45,859 nt of DNA from Acidobacteriota bacterium. Lineage in GTDB: Bacteria; Acidobacteriota; Thermoanaerobaculia; Thermoanaerobaculales; Thermoanaerobaculaceae. The stretch is from NCBI GenBank assembly GCA_003158745.1, contig PMLC01000009.1:1-45859 (forward strand). The letters are read 5' to 3'. The translations under genes were made by a program, and so were the position numbers. Position 1 is the first letter of the stretch; each line of letters begins with the position of its first letter. Below the pieces are notes generated by a model that searched no databases, was not told where the DNA came from, and saw nothing but the letters and a program-made list of their open reading frames with translations. Shown piece after piece: positions 35,354 to 45,750 of this stretch.

Positions 35354-35527
35354 TCACGCGAGGCGGTTCGCGCTGAACCAGTCGACAAAGCCGCGGACTC
35401 CTTTCCCGAACGGGACACAGCAGCCTTTGAAATCGTCGAAACAGGCGACGCCCGCGCCGCGTTCGGGTAGCGACGCCCAAGCGTATGGACCGATGGAAGC
35501 GGCGCCACCCACGAGGATCGTTCCCAT
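35354..35527 (-). pseudogene. Internally deleted NAD-dependent sugar epimerase/dehydratase relic
   Basis: A 57-codon frame starting MGTILVGGAASIGPYAWASL, then GVACFDDFKG, which aligns with the Rossmann start of extended-SDR nucleotide-sugar epimerases (ILVTGGAGFIGSHL...DDF). It then jumps straight to VPFGKGVRGFVDWFSANR, which matches the C-terminal end of the same family. About 250 intervening residues are missing without a frameshift, and the glycine motif is degraded. A Shine-Dalgarno (AAGGAG in the last codons of mlaD) and stop remain, so it may still be translated as a micro-protein. Confidence 0.65.
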
Positions 35528-35530
35528 CAC

Positions 35531-36712
35531 TCACTCCTTGGGAGCGGGCGTGGCGGGAGCTGCGACCGTCGGAGTCGGAGGCGCCACCTGCTCGCCTCTC
35601 GACCGCCGGTTGCGCACGTACCACGTCGAGAGCTTGGAGTCCTGCACGCCCCGAACCACATTTTCGAGGTCGCGGACCAGCCCGGGGTCGTTGATCAGCT
35701 GAGCGGCGCTCCCCTGACCGTGATCCAGCTTTTCCGCGACTTGACGCAACGAGTATGTCATCACCGCGAGGTCGTCGAGGAAGCGTCGCGCGAACTCCTT
35801 GTCGTTCATGAGGCGCGGCAACGTCCCGTCCCCTTCGGTGACCTCCTTTGCGGCCACCGTGACTGCGGCCGCGGCCTGGCCAACACCTTCCAGTGCCTGC
35901 TGCAGACGTTCCCGACCCTTGGGATCCCGAAGCAGCCCCGCCACCACCGAGTCGTCCCGCGCCAGGTCCCTCGCCAACGCCTGGCCGACCTGGTGGCCCG
36001 CGCGAGCCATACCGGCGAGATCCTCGACAAGTTGCGACTCGAGCTTGGGATCGGCGATGAGCTTGCCGAGCGCGCCCTTCCCGGAGCGCAGGCCCTTGAG
36101 GAGCCCGTCGGTCTCCTCTAGCACCGAGTTGAGCCGGGCGACGACCTGGTGCCCGGATTCAGGGTTGACGGTCAGTTCCCCGATGATCCCCTGGCCCTGC
36201 TCCACCCTGTCGAGAATCCTGCGCAGGGACGAGGAGATCGCCTGCACGTTCGTCATTGCGTCTCCGCCCCGGGAGAGCACCGCGGCGACATCGGTGGGCT
36301 CCTCGCTCGGGATCGCGCTGCCGGGCGGAAGGAGCGGCTGCGAGGCGCTGCCCGAGGAGACTTCGAGGTAGCGGTCGCCGAGGAGCCCCAGGGTTCGGAT
36401 GCGAACCCGGGAGTCGGCGCGGACGCGCTCCGCGAGACGCGCATTGATCCGGAACGTCACGGTGATTTGGCGCTGACTCGGATCGGTCGGGAGTTCCACC
36501 TCCTCGACGGCACCCACGACCACTCCATTGAGCCAGACGGACCCGCCCGGGACAAGGCCACCGACGTGCTCAAAGCGTGTCTCGTACCGCTGGTGGCGCT
36601 GGAACAGTCCCTGCTTCTTGCCAATCAGCATGATGATGAGTGCGAAGGCCAGGAGCAGACACGCCGTGAACAGGCCTACCCTCAGCCGACGATGCCGATC
36701 CGTCTCAAGCAT
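35531..36712 (-). CDS. mlaD: MlaD-like MCE protein of a lipid transport ABC system
   Basis: A 393-aa periplasmic substrate-binding/tunnel protein. N-terminal anchor (LFTACLLLAFALIIMLIG), one MCE domain (~40-120, FEHVGGLVPGGSVWLNGVVVG, RVRIRTLGLLGDRYLEV), then a long helical region and a proline/alanine tail. MlaD hexamers guide phospholipids between the membranes. It is longer than E. coli MlaD and, like Mce proteins, probably forms an extended helical needle. ATG 36712 (AGGAGG upstream) overlaps mlaF by 8 bp. Confidence 0.88.
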   Translation of the reverse strand: MLETDRHRRLRVGLFTACLLLAFALIIMLIGKKQGLFQRHQRYETRFEHVGGLVPGGSVWLNGVVVGAVEEVELPTDPSQRQITVTFRINARLAERVRADSRVRIRTLGLLGDRYLEVSSGSASQPLLPPGSAIPSEEPTDVAAVLSRGGDAMTNVQAISSSLRRILDRVEQGQGIIGELTVNPESGHQVVARLNSVLEETDGLLKGLRSGKGALGKLIADPKLESQLVEDLAGMARAGHQVGQALARDLARDDSVVAGLLRDPKGRERLQQALEGVGQAAAAVTVAAKEVTEGDGTLPRLMNDKEFARRFLDDLAVMTYSLRQVAEKLDHGQGSAAQLINDPGLVRDLENVVRGVQDSKLSTWYVRNRRSRGEQVAPPTPTVAAPATPAPKE

Positions 36713-37457
36713 AGACACCTCCTGCGCGCACGAACCGGCCCACGTCGCCCCCCTGCCGTGCCGCGCCTGCCATCGTTCCGGTGAACGTGAACCGCCCGCT
36801 GCTCAGGAACGCAACCCGATCGGCGAGCTTGGCGGCCACGGCGATGTCGTGGGTCACCACCAACGAAGTGGCACCCGTGGTGCGGGTGACCTCGCCGATG
36901 AGCGCCGTGATCGCCAGCCCGGTCAAGGGGTCGAGGCCGGCAGTGGGCTCATCGTAAAGGATGACCTCGGGGTCGAGTGCGAGGCCGCGCGCCAGTGCGA
37001 CCCTCTTCCTCATCCCGCCCGAGAGCTCCGAAGGCGCGAGCGTTTCGGTTCCCGCAAGCCCGACCCGCTCCAGCAACACGGCCACGTGCCGGGCGACATC
37101 GCTATCCCCAAGGTCCGTGTGCTCTCGCAGTGGAAATGCCACATTCTCCCCGACCGTGAGTGAGTCGAATAGAGCGCACTGCTGGAAGATGTAGCTCACG
37201 CGCCGCCGGAGTCCGACCATTTCGTCCTCGGGGAGCTCGGATACGTTGCACCCCAGCACGCTCACACTGCCATGGTCAGGCCGGAGAAGGCCGTTGACGT
37301 GTTTGAGGAAGACCGACTTCCCTTCGCCGGAACCGCCGAGGACGACCACCGTCTCACCGCGCAGCACCTCGAGGCTCACGCCGTCGAGCACCGTGTGCGC
37401 CCCGAACGACTTCCGGAGCTCGTGAACTTCGACGACGACCGGCCGTGTCTCGCTCAT
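36705..37457 (-). CDS. mlaF: MlaF-like ABC transporter ATP-binding protein
   Basis: A 250-aa ATPase energising the Mla/MCE lipid transporter. Walker A GGSGEGKSV, Q-loop IFQQCALFDSLTVGENV, signature ELSGGMRKRVALARGLAL, Walker B VILYDEPTAGLDP and H-loop VTHD are all present; the LFDSLTV and GGMRKRVALAR pattern is typical of MlaF. ATG overlaps the mlaE stop as ATGA. Confidence 0.93.
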   Translation of the reverse strand: MSETRPVVVEVHELRKSFGAHTVLDGVSLEVLRGETVVVLGGSGEGKSVFLKHVNGLLRPDHGSVSVLGCNVSELPEDEMVGLRRRVSYIFQQCALFDSLTVGENVAFPLREHTDLGDSDVARHVAVLLERVGLAGTETLAPSELSGGMRKRVALARGLALDPEVILYDEPTAGLDPLTGLAITALIGEVTRTTGATSLVVTHDIAVAAKLADRVAFLSSGRFTFTGTMAGAARQGGDVGRFVRAGGVYA

Positions 37458-38227
37458 AGCGCCAGGAACAGCTTCGTCAGGAAAAAGTCGAGCACGAGGA
37501 CCGTGATTGCTACCGCGACAACCGTGTCCGTGGTGGCCTTGCCGACTCCGTCGGCTCCGCCGGTCGCCGAGAGCCCGTTATACGACGCGATCAACCCGAT
37601 CGCAAAGGCGAAGAAGACGGACTTGCCGATCCCGGAGAGGAAGTCCCCAAACTGCAGGAGCCGGAGCACGTGACTGAAATAGAAGCCGGGCGTCAGGCCC
37701 AGCTCCCATGTAGAAATGAGCAACCCGCCGAAGATGCCCGCGATGTCAGCGAACACAACGAGCAGGGGAAGGCCCATCAGGAGCGCCAACATGCGGGGCG
37801 CTACGAGCTTCCGCAGCGGATCTGCACCGAGGGATCGCATGGCCTCGACCTGCTCGCTGACCGTCATGCTGCCGAGTTCGGCCGTGATCCCCGAGCCGAC
37901 ACGCCCTCCGACCATCAGCGCCGTCAGTACCGGCCCCAGTTCGCGTATCAGGGACAGCCCTACCACCTCCCCGATGTACAGTTTCGCGCCGAAGGCCGCG
38001 AGCGTGTAGGCGGTCTGGAGCGCCAGGACCATTCCAGTGAACAGCGCAATGACGGCGGCGAGGTTCGTTGAGCGCACCCCCATCGCTTCGAGCTGACGTA
38101 TGATCTCCCGCCCGTCCCACGGCGGCGTGACCAGCCGAGCGGCAACCGCCCGACCCAATAACGCGACGCCCCCGAGGTGGCGAACGCGCCGCCACGTCAG
38201 GTCATAGAGCCTCCCGAAGATGCTCAC
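37454..38227 (-). CDS. mlaE: MlaE-like permease of a lipid transport ABC system
   Basis: A 257-aa inner-membrane permease with five or six hydrophobic segments and the family block GRVGSGITAELGSMTVSEQVEAMRSLGADP. It pairs with MlaF and MlaD in retrograde (or debated anterograde) phospholipid movement between the membranes. GTG 38227 is used; an ATG two bases earlier stops immediately. No mlaB or mlaC is present here, so those partners must lie elsewhere or be absent. Confidence 0.93.
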   Translation of the reverse strand: MSIFGRLYDLTWRRVRHLGGVALLGRAVAARLVTPPWDGREIIRQLEAMGVRSTNLAAVIALFTGMVLALQTAYTLAAFGAKLYIGEVVGLSLIRELGPVLTALMVGGRVGSGITAELGSMTVSEQVEAMRSLGADPLRKLVAPRMLALLMGLPLLVVFADIAGIFGGLLISTWELGLTPGFYFSHVLRLLQFGDFLSGIGKSVFFAFAIGLIASYNGLSATGGADGVGKATTDTVVAVAITVLVLDFFLTKLFLAL

Positions 38228-38319
38228 ATCATGATGGTATCAGTCGCGGCACGACAATTCTGGCGACGACGACCCGCAGGCAGCTGTGGCGCCCGGCCGG
38301 ACGTGGTATACGATGAGGC

Positions 38320-38502
38320 ATGGCGCATCCCGAGTACGTGATCTGCATGGAGTGCGAGACTCCGACCTACGTCTTCGAGTGGGGCGACGGCAAGGTTGTG
38401 GAAGCGTTGTGCCCAATCTGCGGCAACGACGACGCGACCACGTTTGTCTCCGAGGAAGAGCTCGAGGAGATGGTTGCATCCGAGGATGAGGACGAGGAGT
38501 AG
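38320..38502 (+). CDS. Small zinc-ribbon acidic protein, paralogue 1
   Basis: A 60-aa protein: MAHPEYVICMECETP opens a four-cysteine ribbon (CxxC at 9-12 and 31-34, LCPICGN) and the tail is nearly all Glu/Asp (SEEELEEM...EDEDEE). No family recognised. It aligns along its length with the 84-aa protein encoded at 40424 (M-A-x-P-x-Y-x-I-C-x-E-C...C-x-x-CGN). It precedes the DAK2-DegV gene by 53 bp on the same strand. Confidence 0.75.
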   Translation: MAHPEYVICMECETPTYVFEWGDGKVVEALCPICGNDDATTFVSEEELEEMVASEDEDEE

Positions 38503-38555
38503 CCGGACGCCGTGAAGTCGTACGATCCGACGTGCACTGCTGCGGGGGGGTTCTG

Positions 38556-40340
38556 ATGGTTCAGATCCTCACCGGCCCCCGCCTCGCTCGGGCGCTACGC
38601 GCCGGTGCTCTGGCAGTGGCACGCGAGCAGGAGACGCTGAACCGCATCAACGTCTTTCCGGTGCCGGACGCCGACACGGGGGCGAACCTCGCGTCGACAC
38701 TGCGTGCCGCCGCAGCGGCGCTGACGACTCCCACCGAATTCACGGTAGGACAAACGGCTCGAGCGGCTGCCGACGCGGCCCTTGAAGGGGCACGCGGCAA
38801 CTCGGGCGCGATCCTCGCGCAGTTCCTGCACGGCATGGCGGATTCGATCGGGACCAGGGTGAGTGTCACGACCCGAGAGTTTGCCGCGGCTGTTCGGAGG
38901 GGCGCCGATGCGGCGCAGCAGGCACTCGCCCAGCCTGTCGAGGGAACGATCCTGACGGTGCTGCGGACTTGGGCGGCCGCCCTCGAAGAGCAGACCGGCA
39001 AGATCCACGACTTCGGCGAACTGCTCGGGAGCGGCCTGGAACATGCGCGTGAGGCCCTGGCCAACACCCCCAAACAGCTCGCCGTTCTCGCCAGGCACGG
39101 TGTCGTGGACGCCGGAGCGCAGGGGTTCGTGTATTTTCTCGAAGGGATCTCCAGCTTCTTCCGCGACCGGAGGGCGGCAAGCTGGCGACGCGCCGGGATG
39201 TCGCTGGCGCAGCAGACGTCGTTTGTCGCCGCCCACGCCGATCTGGACCTCACCTATCGCTACTGCTCCGAGGGGTTGCTCATCGGCGAGCACCTCGATC
39301 GCAAGGCCGTCGCACGAGAGGTGGGCGCGCTCGGTGGCTCGCTCGTCGTTGCGGGAGGCGGGTCACGCCTGCGAGTGCACCTCCATACCAACGAACCGCA
39401 GCGGCTGTTCGCCAAGCTCGCCGAATTGGGTACGGTGCATCACACCAAGATCGACGACATGGTGCTCCAGCAGCTCGCCGCGCGCGGAGCCACGCTGGCG
39501 GTGGTCACGGACTCATCCTGTGACATGCCGGAAGCGAAGGCTCACGCCGCCGGGCTGGTCCGCGTGCCGCTCTCCATCTCTTTCGGCGACGATACTTTCC
39601 TCGACGGCGTGGACATCACGCCGCCCCAGTTCTACCAGCGCCTGGCTGTCAGCCTGGTCCCGCCCAGGACCTCCCAGCCCGCCGTCGGTGATTTCCGGGC
39701 GACGTTCAAACGCCTGCTCGAGAATCACGAGGGCGTCATCTCGCTGCACCTCTCGGCGGCCCTTTCGGGCACCTACCAGGCCGCGCTGGCTGCCGCCAGG
39801 CAGGTGGACTCAAGCCGCATCAGGGTCGTGGACACTCGCCAGATCTCGGTCGCCCTCGGCTTGGTCGCCGAGGCCGTCGGGGAGGCGATCGCTGCCGGCA
39901 AGGACCTCGACGGGGCCGTCGCCGTCGCCGAACAAGTGAGCCGCGAAACCCAACTCTTCGCCTCGTTTGCCTCCCTCGACCTGGCGGTTCGCGGCGGGCG
40001 AGTTTCGGCCGCTCAAGCCCGGGTGGCGACCCTATTCGGCCTCAATCCCGTCATCACCATAGGAGAGGACGGCACGGCCGCCCCGGCGGGCGTGTACTTC
40101 GGATTCGCGGCCTCTCTCCGGGGAATCGTCAAACGCGTCCGGCGTTTCGCCGGGGGTCGGCCGGTGCGCATCATGGTTGCGCATGCGAGCGCGGTCGGGG
40201 CGGCAGAATACGTCGCCGAGCGGTTATGTTCCCGCTTCGGGGTGTCCGAGATCCCGATCGTCAACCTCACTGCCGTCCTGGCCGCCCACGTCGGCCCAGG
40301 GGCTGTTGGCGTGGGGGTACGCAGGATGGAGGAGGTCTGA
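38556..40340 (+). CDS. DAK2-DegV fusion, fatty acid kinase-like (FakA-FakB)
   Basis: A 594-aa fusion. N-terminal DAK2/DhaL kinase domain (~1-200) with the Mg-ATP motif VFPVPDADTGANL and GARGNSGAILAQFLHGM. A middle FakA-type domain (~220-305) contains LTYRYCSEGLLI and LRVHLHTNEPQ. The C-terminal DegV/FakB lipid-binding domain (~310-594) has LAVVTDSSCDMP, TSQPAVGDF, SLHLSAALSGTY and FASLDLAVRGGRVS. In Gram-positives FakA and FakB are separate proteins that phosphorylate exogenous fatty acids; here kinase and carrier are one chain. ATG 38556 is chosen over 38532 because homology starts there. Confidence 0.88.
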   Translation: MVQILTGPRLARALRAGALAVAREQETLNRINVFPVPDADTGANLASTLRAAAAALTTPTEFTVGQTARAAADAALEGARGNSGAILAQFLHGMADSIGTRVSVTTREFAAAVRRGADAAQQALAQPVEGTILTVLRTWAAALEEQTGKIHDFGELLGSGLEHAREALANTPKQLAVLARHGVVDAGAQGFVYFLEGISSFFRDRRAASWRRAGMSLAQQTSFVAAHADLDLTYRYCSEGLLIGEHLDRKAVAREVGALGGSLVVAGGGSRLRVHLHTNEPQRLFAKLAELGTVHHTKIDDMVLQQLAARGATLAVVTDSSCDMPEAKAHAAGLVRVPLSISFGDDTFLDGVDITPPQFYQRLAVSLVPPRTSQPAVGDFRATFKRLLENHEGVISLHLSAALSGTYQAALAAARQVDSSRIRVVDTRQISVALGLVAEAVGEAIAAGKDLDGAVAVAEQVSRETQLFASFASLDLAVRGGRVSAAQARVATLFGLNPVITIGEDGTAAPAGVYFGFAASLRGIVKRVRRFAGGRPVRIMVAHASAVGAAEYVAERLCSRFGVSEIPIVNLTAVLAAHVGPGAVGVGVRRMEEV

Positions 40341-40423
40341 TGTTCTTGCAAGCCGAGAGAGTGCCAGCTAAATTCTACGGAAGGCCAGCGGCCCACATGG
40401 GAAGGCCGGCGACGGAGGAATGA

Positions 40424-40678
40424 ATGGCTCGACCCGACTATCTCATCTGCCTCGAGTGTGAATCGGAGGTGGAGGACTTCATCTGGAGGGACGGCGAAAT
40501 CCGTCGAGCCACCTGCGAGGTGTGCGGCAACGCCGACACTGACGCGTTTTCCCTGCCTGAGGACTACGGTCAAAACATCGACGAAGAAGAGGAAGAGGAT
40601 ACCGAGGACGAGGACGACGAGGAAGCCAAGTACCTCGAAGACTACGACGACGATGACGAAGAAGCAGAAGAGGAATAG
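40424..40678 (+). CDS. Small zinc-ribbon acidic protein, paralogue 2
   Basis: An 84-aa paralogue of the protein at 38320: MARPDYLICLECESE with CxxC at 10-13, CEVCGN with the second CxxC at ~32-35, then a ~45-residue tail of Glu/Asp with a few Lys/Tyr. The ribbon probably binds zinc; the acidic tail suggests nucleic-acid mimicry or a basic partner (inference). GGAGG lies before ATG 40424. It directly follows the DAK2-DegV gene. Confidence 0.75.
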   Translation: MARPDYLICLECESEVEDFIWRDGEIRRATCEVCGNADTDAFSLPEDYGQNIDEEEEEDTEDEDDEEAKYLEDYDDDDEEAEEE

Positions 40679-43972: not shown

Positions 43973-44491
43973 TCAGTGGTCGATCTTCTCGAAGGCATAC
44001 CGCCGCACCCAAACCAGCCACAGAACAACGCCGAACACGATGACGAGAGACTGCCAGACGAGCACGTGCGACACGTTGAACCACTGCGGCCGCAGGATGC
44101 CGACGTAGAAGAGGGAGACCACCCGGACGACGTTGAAGATCTGGATGGCGACGAATCCCAGCACCACGCCGAGGAGCTTGCTGCGCCACGGTGCGGGGAA
44201 GGCAAGAACCGCGGAAACGAAGATCAGGATTGCCTCCAGGCCGTTGCACCCGTTGAAGATCGTAACCGAGAACCGGCGTGAGGTCAGGACCTGGCCAACG
44301 ACCTTCGAATCTTCCCCAAAGAGGTTGAGCACCACCCTCGACTCGTGGGCGACGAACGTCGTGTAGGGATTGACGATGTGGTCGTTGACCGGCCGAAGCG
44401 CGAGAATGAGGAACCCGAGGCTCAGAACGGCTACGTATCGGGCGACGAAGCGGCCCGCCGGAGTTGCGAGAAAGGTGCGGATCCAGTTCAC
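43973..44491 (-). CDS. xrtH: Exosortase H
   Basis: A 172-aa integral membrane transpeptidase-like protein that processes secreted proteins bearing a C-terminal sorting signal (the IPTLxxWG-CTERM type). The catalytic residues sit in NGCNGLEAILIF (Cys), FNVVRVVSLFYVG (Arg) and FNVSHVLVWQSLVIV (His). Four to six hydrophobic segments; length is typical of XrtH. GTG 44491 starts VNWIRTFLATPAG; the Shine-Dalgarno is weak. No protein with a matching C-terminal tag is encoded in this window, so the substrates lie elsewhere. Confidence 0.85.
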   Translation of the reverse strand: MNWIRTFLATPAGRFVARYVAVLSLGFLILALRPVNDHIVNPYTTFVAHESRVVLNLFGEDSKVVGQVLTSRRFSVTIFNGCNGLEAILIFVSAVLAFPAPWRSKLLGVVLGFVAIQIFNVVRVVSLFYVGILRPQWFNVSHVLVWQSLVIVFGVVLWLVWVRRYAFEKIDH

Positions 44492-44619
44492 CGCAGGATT
44501 ATCCTGGCACGTTGCCTTCCGGTCAACGACCGGACCGACGCCGTGCCGCCGGAGTGGACATCCTGGCGCCCCCTGGGGACGCCTCGGCACAGGCGCACAC
44601 GTCGGAGCGGACTCGAGAA

Positions 44620-44635
44620 TGGCACGGCTCTTGTA
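44620..44635 (+). promoter_or_regulatory. Candidate sigma-54 promoter
   Basis: TGGCACG-N4-TTGTA matches the -24/-12 consensus TGGCACG-N4-TTGCW in all but one position, with GG and the -12 G exactly spaced (10 bp). Transcription would start near 44645, only about 5 nt before the chosen TonB-like ATG, so either the mRNA is nearly leaderless or translation starts later. Chance matches to this motif occur. Confidence 0.4.
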
Positions 44636-44649
44636 GGATAGACCCTGAT

Positions 44650-45750
44650 ATGTTTGGTGTGCCCGATTTCGATCCCTCCCAGGAGCTAGAACTCGAGGAA
44701 CCTGGCCCATCACGGATCTTCAAGTTCATCGAAGGCAACTCCGAAGAGTTGCCGTGGCCCCTCGGGAAAGACCAGAAGGCCCTCTTCCTCCTGGACGAGC
44801 GGGTCTCGCCCCGCCCGATCCGGCTACGCGACCGTTCGCTACTCATTGCGCTGGTGGCCTCGCTGCTCCTCCACATCGTGATCTTCTCGCAGTTGCGGGC
44901 CGACAGCTTGATCCAGACGATGCTCGCAGCGAGAAGGCTGCAGGCCATGAGGAACCCCCCCGAAGACAACACGCCCTTCTACGAGATGGTGGATATGCCC
45001 AAGCAGCGCGCCGAGAAGCCGTCGCGGCCCAAAGCCCCGGCCTCGGACCTCGAACGCCGAGCGCATGGCGGAGTCGGCGCGCCGGATATCACGCCGGGCT
45101 CTCGCGGTAACACACCGGAGTTGCGGCTCGAGCCCCCAGGCAACCAGCGCGCAGGCAAGCCGGCCGGACCTAGCGAAGGGGACCGGGTTGCCGCTCGTGA
45201 GGCCGGGCAAGGCGGCAGCCAGAGCGGCCAGGGAGCAGACCTGGGGATCAGGGCAACCGACAAGGGCGCCGGGGCCGTGCTGATCACGCCGACCGCCGGC
45301 GGCGGCGCCCAGCAGAGATCGCCGGGGCTCAAGGGCCTCGGCGCATATGGGACGCTGGGCTCGGCCGGCGGAGCGGTCCCCGAACGCAAGGGCGGCCAGG
45401 TGGACGTCGGCCCGCTCGCATTCGACACCGAGTGGTACGACTGGGGCCCGTACGCGGCGGAGATGCTGCGCCGCATCCGGTACCACTGGGACATCCCAGA
45501 GATCGCCCAGATGGGTGTCCCGGGCGTCGTCCGCATCCACTTCTTCATCGAGCGGGACGGCCGGGTGACGGAGGTCGAAATCCAGAGGGAGTCCGGGCGT
45601 CCCCCTATGGACTTCGCGGCGCGGGACGCAATCCAGAACGCCTCACCGCTGCCGCCGCTGCCGGACGATCTGGGCGGCGTGTTTCATGAGGGCGTGACCA
45701 TCACTTTCTACTACAACACGCCCGTCCCCGAGCGCACCGATCGCGGCTGA
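44650..45750 (+). CDS. TonB family C-terminal domain protein
   Basis: A 366-aa protein: cytoplasmic acidic N-terminus (~1-60), one TM helix (LLIALVASLLLHIVIFSQL, ~75-93), a long low-complexity periplasmic linker rich in Gly, Pro and Gln, and a TonB-type C-terminal domain (~255-366). That domain contains YAAEMLRRIRYHWDIPE, GVVRIHFFIERDGRVTEVEI and FAARDAIQNASPLPPLP. TonB links inner-membrane proton force to outer-membrane receptors, but the large N-terminal cytoplasmic part is unusual and no ExbB/ExbD is near. Divergent from xrtH. Confidence 0.82.
   Translation: MFGVPDFDPSQELELEEPGPSRIFKFIEGNSEELPWPLGKDQKALFLLDERVSPRPIRLRDRSLLIALVASLLLHIVIFSQLRADSLIQTMLAARRLQAMRNPPEDNTPFYEMVDMPKQRAEKPSRPKAPASDLERRAHGGVGAPDITPGSRGNTPELRLEPPGNQRAGKPAGPSEGDRVAAREAGQGGSQSGQGADLGIRATDKGAGAVLITPTAGGGAQQRSPGLKGLGAYGTLGSAGGAVPERKGGQVDVGPLAFDTEWYDWGPYAAEMLRRIRYHWDIPEIAQMGVPGVVRIHFFIERDGRVTEVEIQRESGRPPMDFAARDAIQNASPLPPLPDDLGGVFHEGVTITFYYNTPVPERTDRG

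Follow-up and report, generated by a model that had tools for sequence, protein, structure and literature searches.

A one-chain DAK2–DegV kinase bracketed by paralogous acidic zinc-ribbon proteins at a probable fatty-acid-activation locus of Acidobacteriota

The window, a 45,859-nucleotide stretch of DNA from an Acidobacteriota bacterium, carries a single-chain fatty-acid-kinase-like gene bracketed by the genes of two small zinc-ribbon proteins, Z1 and Z2, with an mlaFED operon diverging from Z1:

35534-36718, divergent from Z1: mlaD, mlaFED operon
36708-37457, divergent from Z1: mlaF, mlaFED operon
37457-38227, minus strand: mlaE, divergent from Z1 and linked to it in most family members
38296-38321, plus strand: TGGTATACGAT, an extended -10-like element whose 3' end lies about 8 nt upstream of the Z1 ATG, conserved in a nine-locus family alignment
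38320-38502, plus strand: Z1, a 60-residue C4 zinc-ribbon protein (C9, C12, C31, C34) with an acidic helical tail
38556-40340, plus strand: single-chain fatty-acid-kinase-like enzyme of 594 residues, with FakA_N (DhaL/DAK2), FakA_L (middle) and a DegV/FakB-type C terminus
40341-40423, plus strand: 83-nt spacer carrying an element similar to TTCTTGCA-N18-GCTACATT, which the family conserves, including a relative that has no kinase
40424-40678, plus strand: Z2, an 84-residue paralogue of Z1 with a longer Asp/Glu tail

An earlier note on this DNA had described two small ribbon proteins on either side of a one-chain FakA–FakB-like enzyme, on the same strand and tightly spaced, and this arrangement was confirmed: all three genes are intact, and the spacers measure 53 nt (Z1 to kinase) and 83 nt (kinase to Z2). 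The kinase was taken to start at the ATG at 38556 and not at an upstream GTG (38532), as homologues begin with MVQ at the ATG position. Z1 and Z2 share the motif PxYxICxEC...CxxCGN and are 45% identical across 47 residues; with Z2 as the query, a genome-wide search returned Z1 at E 8e-11 and no other comparable match, so that the resemblance is not due to chance and the two proteins are paralogues, as had been proposed. This genome holds no clear third copy of the ribbon. The Glu/Asp-rich tails were likewise borne out, with Asp and Glu making up 67–69% of residues from position 45 and a net charge at pH 7 of about -18 for Z1 and about -34 for Z2. Comparison with family relatives gave dN/dS values of about 0.05–0.1 for Z2 and roughly 0.2–0.55 for Z1, indicating purifying selection on both.

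The central protein has the domains and the complete catalytic residues of a one-chain FakA–FakB-like enzyme. Pfam matches were found, in order, to Dak2 (E 1e-37), FakA-like_M (1e-15) and DegV (5e-65); the closest PDB relative of the first 306 residues is the FakA-like kinase 7w7h_A (E 1e-42), and the remainder resembles DegV/FakB structures. Residue roles were taken from S. aureus FakA, for which the ATP–Mg ligands and the FakA_L Cys-His-His triad have been described (PMC9136124). The equivalents of FakA N32, D38, D40, T41, N82 and D185 are kept both in this kinase and in homologous proteins, within the ATP/Mg-site motifs NVFPVPDADTG, GARGNSG and VVDAG, as is the triad (C240, H282 and H284 in FakA; motifs YRYCSE and VHLHT). 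Alignment of the DegV part with homologues revealed SGT, RGGRVS and AHxGPG motifs, including the conserved Arg.

The features shared with S. aureus FakA/FakB (7rm7, 8vip, 7w7h, 4x9x) are thus FakA_N, FakA_L, the catalytic residues and a FakB-type DegV domain; the window kinase is one chain, whereas S. aureus has FakA and separate FakBs, and a true DegV domain takes the place of the FakA_C docking domain. FakA-like_C reached 21.7 bits where its cut-off is 23, with this match lying within the far stronger DegV one (220 bits), and the scores fell below the NCBIfam equivalog cut-offs (FakA, 156 versus 975 bits; FakB1, 114 versus 350 bits). Because FakA-like_C falls under its cut-off and the docking domain is absent, the kinase is not an orthologue of two-component FakA, but its sequence predicts that it would work like one. 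In S. aureus, FakA_N and FakA_L are enough for activity with FakB, and FakA_C serves to dock it, through a negatively charged groove that receives a positive wedge on FakB (PMC9136124). With FakA_C replaced by a FakB-type DegV domain, a single chain could therefore do the whole job. The genome encodes no separate FakA, since this kinase is its sole DAK2 protein. A second DegV protein is present (701 residues; L162, 2746-4848, minus strand, equal to contig 157 of G000), about 400 N-terminal residues of which have no counterpart in Pfam or among solved structures; DegV proteins resembling it occur in many members of the class.

The one-chain architecture is not new and extends beyond the window's lineage, as public annotation includes a homologue in Listeria innocua (WP_207577344.1, 'DegV family protein') with the same organization over 91% of the query and 32% identity, whose neighbour is a DUF1295 gene and not ribbons or plsY. 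A DUF1295 membrane-protein gene adjoins the one-chain kinase in this Listeria locus (L243) and in six Acidobacteriota loci (L170, L172–L176); in several DUF1295-linked Acidobacteriota kinases the SGT of the DegV motif is changed to SGL, SGY or SGF. A literature search on DAK2–DegV fusions found no description of a one-chain Fak and no activity data for any protein of this form. The earlier note had also suspected a link to lipid synthesis, and genomic context supports it. Six Acidobacteriota genomes that have no ribbon carry plsY directly 3' of the kinase on the same strand (L113–L116, L119, L120), and four genomes of the window's family, from two genera, have the order Z1–kinase–Z2–plsY (L236–L239); the stop codon of Z2 and the start codon of plsY overlap or directly adjoin each other in L237 and L238. 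PlsY, a glycerol-3-phosphate acyltransferase that consumes acyl-phosphate, thus adjoins the kinase or Z2 in ten Acidobacteriota genomes altogether, but not in the window's own, which encodes PlsY on another contig and also has a further acyl-phosphate enzyme, PlsX; the operon diverging from Z1 is mlaFED. In a review, FakAB is presented as a route of Gram-positives (PMC10146087). The finding of a one-chain form with the full catalytic set beside plsY in many Acidobacteriota suggests that some other lineages, too, activate fatty acids as acyl-phosphates.

The ribbons are an undescribed small-protein family conserved throughout the class of the window's genome. Neither Z1 nor Z2 matched any Pfam or NCBIfam family above cut-off, in agreement with the earlier note, and relatives gave weak matches only. 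An alignment of 43 sequences revealed four invariant Cys residues and an invariant F42 within the core PDYLICLECxTPxYxFEW...CxxCGN, and the AlphaFold model of Z1 (pLDDT 88) has a confident ribbon and C-terminal helix. Searches of the PDB reached a best E of 0.013 by sequence and yielded no fold match at E<=0.001; viral contigs and plasmids contained no ribbons. The commonest weak likeness was to the C-terminal ribbon of aIF2-beta/eIF5 (PF01873), a C4 ribbon with similar Cys spacing, which gave sub-threshold matches in 38 of the 43 members (Z1 scored 16.6 bits, with the cut-off at 27, and the best member reached E 5e-4). Unlike aIF2-beta/eIF5, the family has no N-terminal IF2-beta domain and no significant fold match, and its scores lie under all curated cut-offs. 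Pfam, NCBIfam and PDB searches for known ribosomal or RNA polymerase zinc-ribbon families produced only weak hits, placing the ribbons outside those families, as anticipated.

Z1 is the orthologue of a ribbon that elsewhere in the class is encoded once in each genome, next to unrelated neighbours (an SNF2 helicase, sugar-nucleotide enzymes, a histidine kinase, uridine kinase and an adenylosuccinate-lyase-like enzyme); a single copy with unrelated neighbours is what a housekeeping gene typically shows. Z2 was confined to the window's family in a ribbon survey covering the Acidobacteriota. Although trees built from some sixty residues are weak, Z2 formed one clade (support 100/99) and Z1 another (97/94).

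The linkage of ribbon and kinase depends on the scale at which it is viewed. Gene calls in relatives came from a simple script, and the phylum sample of 297 genomes consisted mostly of metagenome-assembled genomes, in which counts of absence depend on completeness; ribbons were found in 25, full-length kinases in 31 and both in 6. The kinase was absent from 19 of the 25 ribbon genomes and the ribbon from 25 of the 31 kinase genomes, and in four of the six genomes with both, the genes lay on different contigs. Co-occurrence in the phylum (6 observed versus 2.6 expected, P 0.03, relatedness ignored) was rejected as support for an association, as P rose to 0.18 once the window's genus was removed, again without correction for kinship. 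In contrast, within the window's family the kinase stands between the two ribbons in 15 of the 16 ribbon-bearing genomes, across six genera and with kinase identity down to 61%. Z1–kinase–Z2 is contiguous in 14 of the 17 family genomes and split by contig ends in one; a genome that is 74% complete contains neither kinase nor ribbons. The exception is G317 (98% complete; locus L039/L240), in which Z1 and Z2 are adjacent and no kinase is encoded anywhere in the genome; no kinase remnant was found between them in L039. In the ribbon tree, L039 groups as sister to L040 (support 92/79 with Z1, lower with Z2), a locus that retains the kinase; G317 has therefore most likely lost it. Given the family-wide linkage, the frequent occurrence of each without the other across the phylum and the kinase-less G317, linkage to the kinase is a trait of the window's family and not of the ribbon family. 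The association of ribbons with the fusion that the earlier note expected thus holds within this family; elsewhere the ribbon mostly occurs without the kinase. A role of the ribbons as dedicated kinase partners was not supported, given a class-wide single-copy ribbon with unrelated neighbours, the dissociation of ribbon and kinase in the phylum and the retention of Z1–Z2 in G317.

The promoter-like elements bear on how the three genes are expressed. TGGTATACGAT may be the promoter of Z1, with a leader that would be very short or missing, and the TTCTTGCA-N18-GCTACATT-like element is a possible promoter of Z2's own, which is kept upstream of Z2 in G317, where Z2 itself stays under constraint. 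A strict sigma-70 consensus scan gave no match at either candidate; conservation is the evidence for both elements. A small peptide in the kinase–Z2 spacer (frame after TGATG) was considered and rejected, as it is not conserved in the spacers of relatives.

On balance, we think it probable that the locus is a fatty-acid-activation operon in which the kinase supplies acyl-phosphate for PlsY and the ribbons are independent of the kinase, sharing its location and expression. The conserved catalytic residues and the plsY linkage make it likely that the kinase converts fatty acid and ATP to acyl-phosphate: the DegV (FakB-type) part would hold the fatty acid, the DAK2 part would bind ATP–Mg and the FakA_L part would supply the Cys-His-His triad, yielding acyl-phosphate that PlsY could use for phospholipid synthesis. 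Z1 would be a housekeeping C4 zinc-ribbon protein, present across the class without the kinase, and Z2 a duplicate dating from the ancestor of the window's family and retained in the kinase operon. Most likely, both bind zinc and their acidic tails act on a target other than the kinase; the aIF2-beta/eIF5 likeness hints that this target may lie, for example, in the apparatus of transcription or translation. Z1 and Z2 would thus be co-located and co-expressed with the kinase without being its subunits.

Members of the DAK2/EDD group include dihydroxyacetone kinases, and our literature search found no assay of the one-chain form; phosphorylation of a substrate other than fatty acids nevertheless appears improbable, as the FakA_L triad, the SGT and Arg motifs of the DegV part and the repeated plsY linkage all point to acyl-phosphate. 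For the ribbons, the cluster might persist simply as a rarely rearranged region of the family, with no relation of Z1 and Z2 to lipids, which we regard as possible if on the unlikely side. Consistent with this, the mlaE, mlaD, epimerase and FHA flanks are also conserved in the family, and Z1 orthologues elsewhere have unrelated neighbours. However, mlaFED is decayed or gone in some members (L034, 3650-3787, minus strand; L035, L040, L240), where the epimerase then adjoins Z1, and the trio outlasts both this loss (L035, L040) and changes in downstream genes, while plsY lies closely 3' of Z2 in two genera.

Conservation of the trio in 15 of 16 genomes, with kinase identity down to 61%, goes beyond easy neutral accident and leaves room for a functional tie. 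Z2, and perhaps Z1, could serve the kinase and PlsY as a partner or regulator specific to this lineage, such as an acidic scaffold replacing FakA_C, a reading that we consider unlikely. The spread of the trio over six genera, its survival of mla loss and the Z2–plsY junctions in L237 and L238, among the four genomes with the extended order, speak for it, and an acidic helper is conceivable because the negative groove of S. aureus FakA_C docks the positive wedge of FakB (PMC9136124). Yet Z1 and Z2 are still present and constrained in G317, which is 98% complete and has no kinase, most kinase homologues in the phylum are without any ribbon, Z2 has a conserved promoter-like element of its own, and a covalently attached DegV domain should make a docking partner unnecessary. 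That Z2 has since gained a role in lipid metabolism seems distinctly unlikely, and it is quite improbable that Z2 is a dedicated acidic zinc-ribbon factor passing the kinase's acyl-phosphate to PlsY or tuning flux; if it were, Z2 would be a Fak accessory protein of a type not described before. Through Z2, a link between the ribbon family and the fatty-acid kinase can be put to the test.

Elsewhere in the window, a 58-codon frame (35354-35530, minus strand) is the remnant of an internally deleted epimerase, aligning with the 40 N-terminal and the 19 C-terminal residues of a 318-residue NAD-dependent epimerase that is intact at the same place in L033 and L034. Another frame (43973-44713, minus strand) resembles, by eye, an exosortase-type membrane protein.
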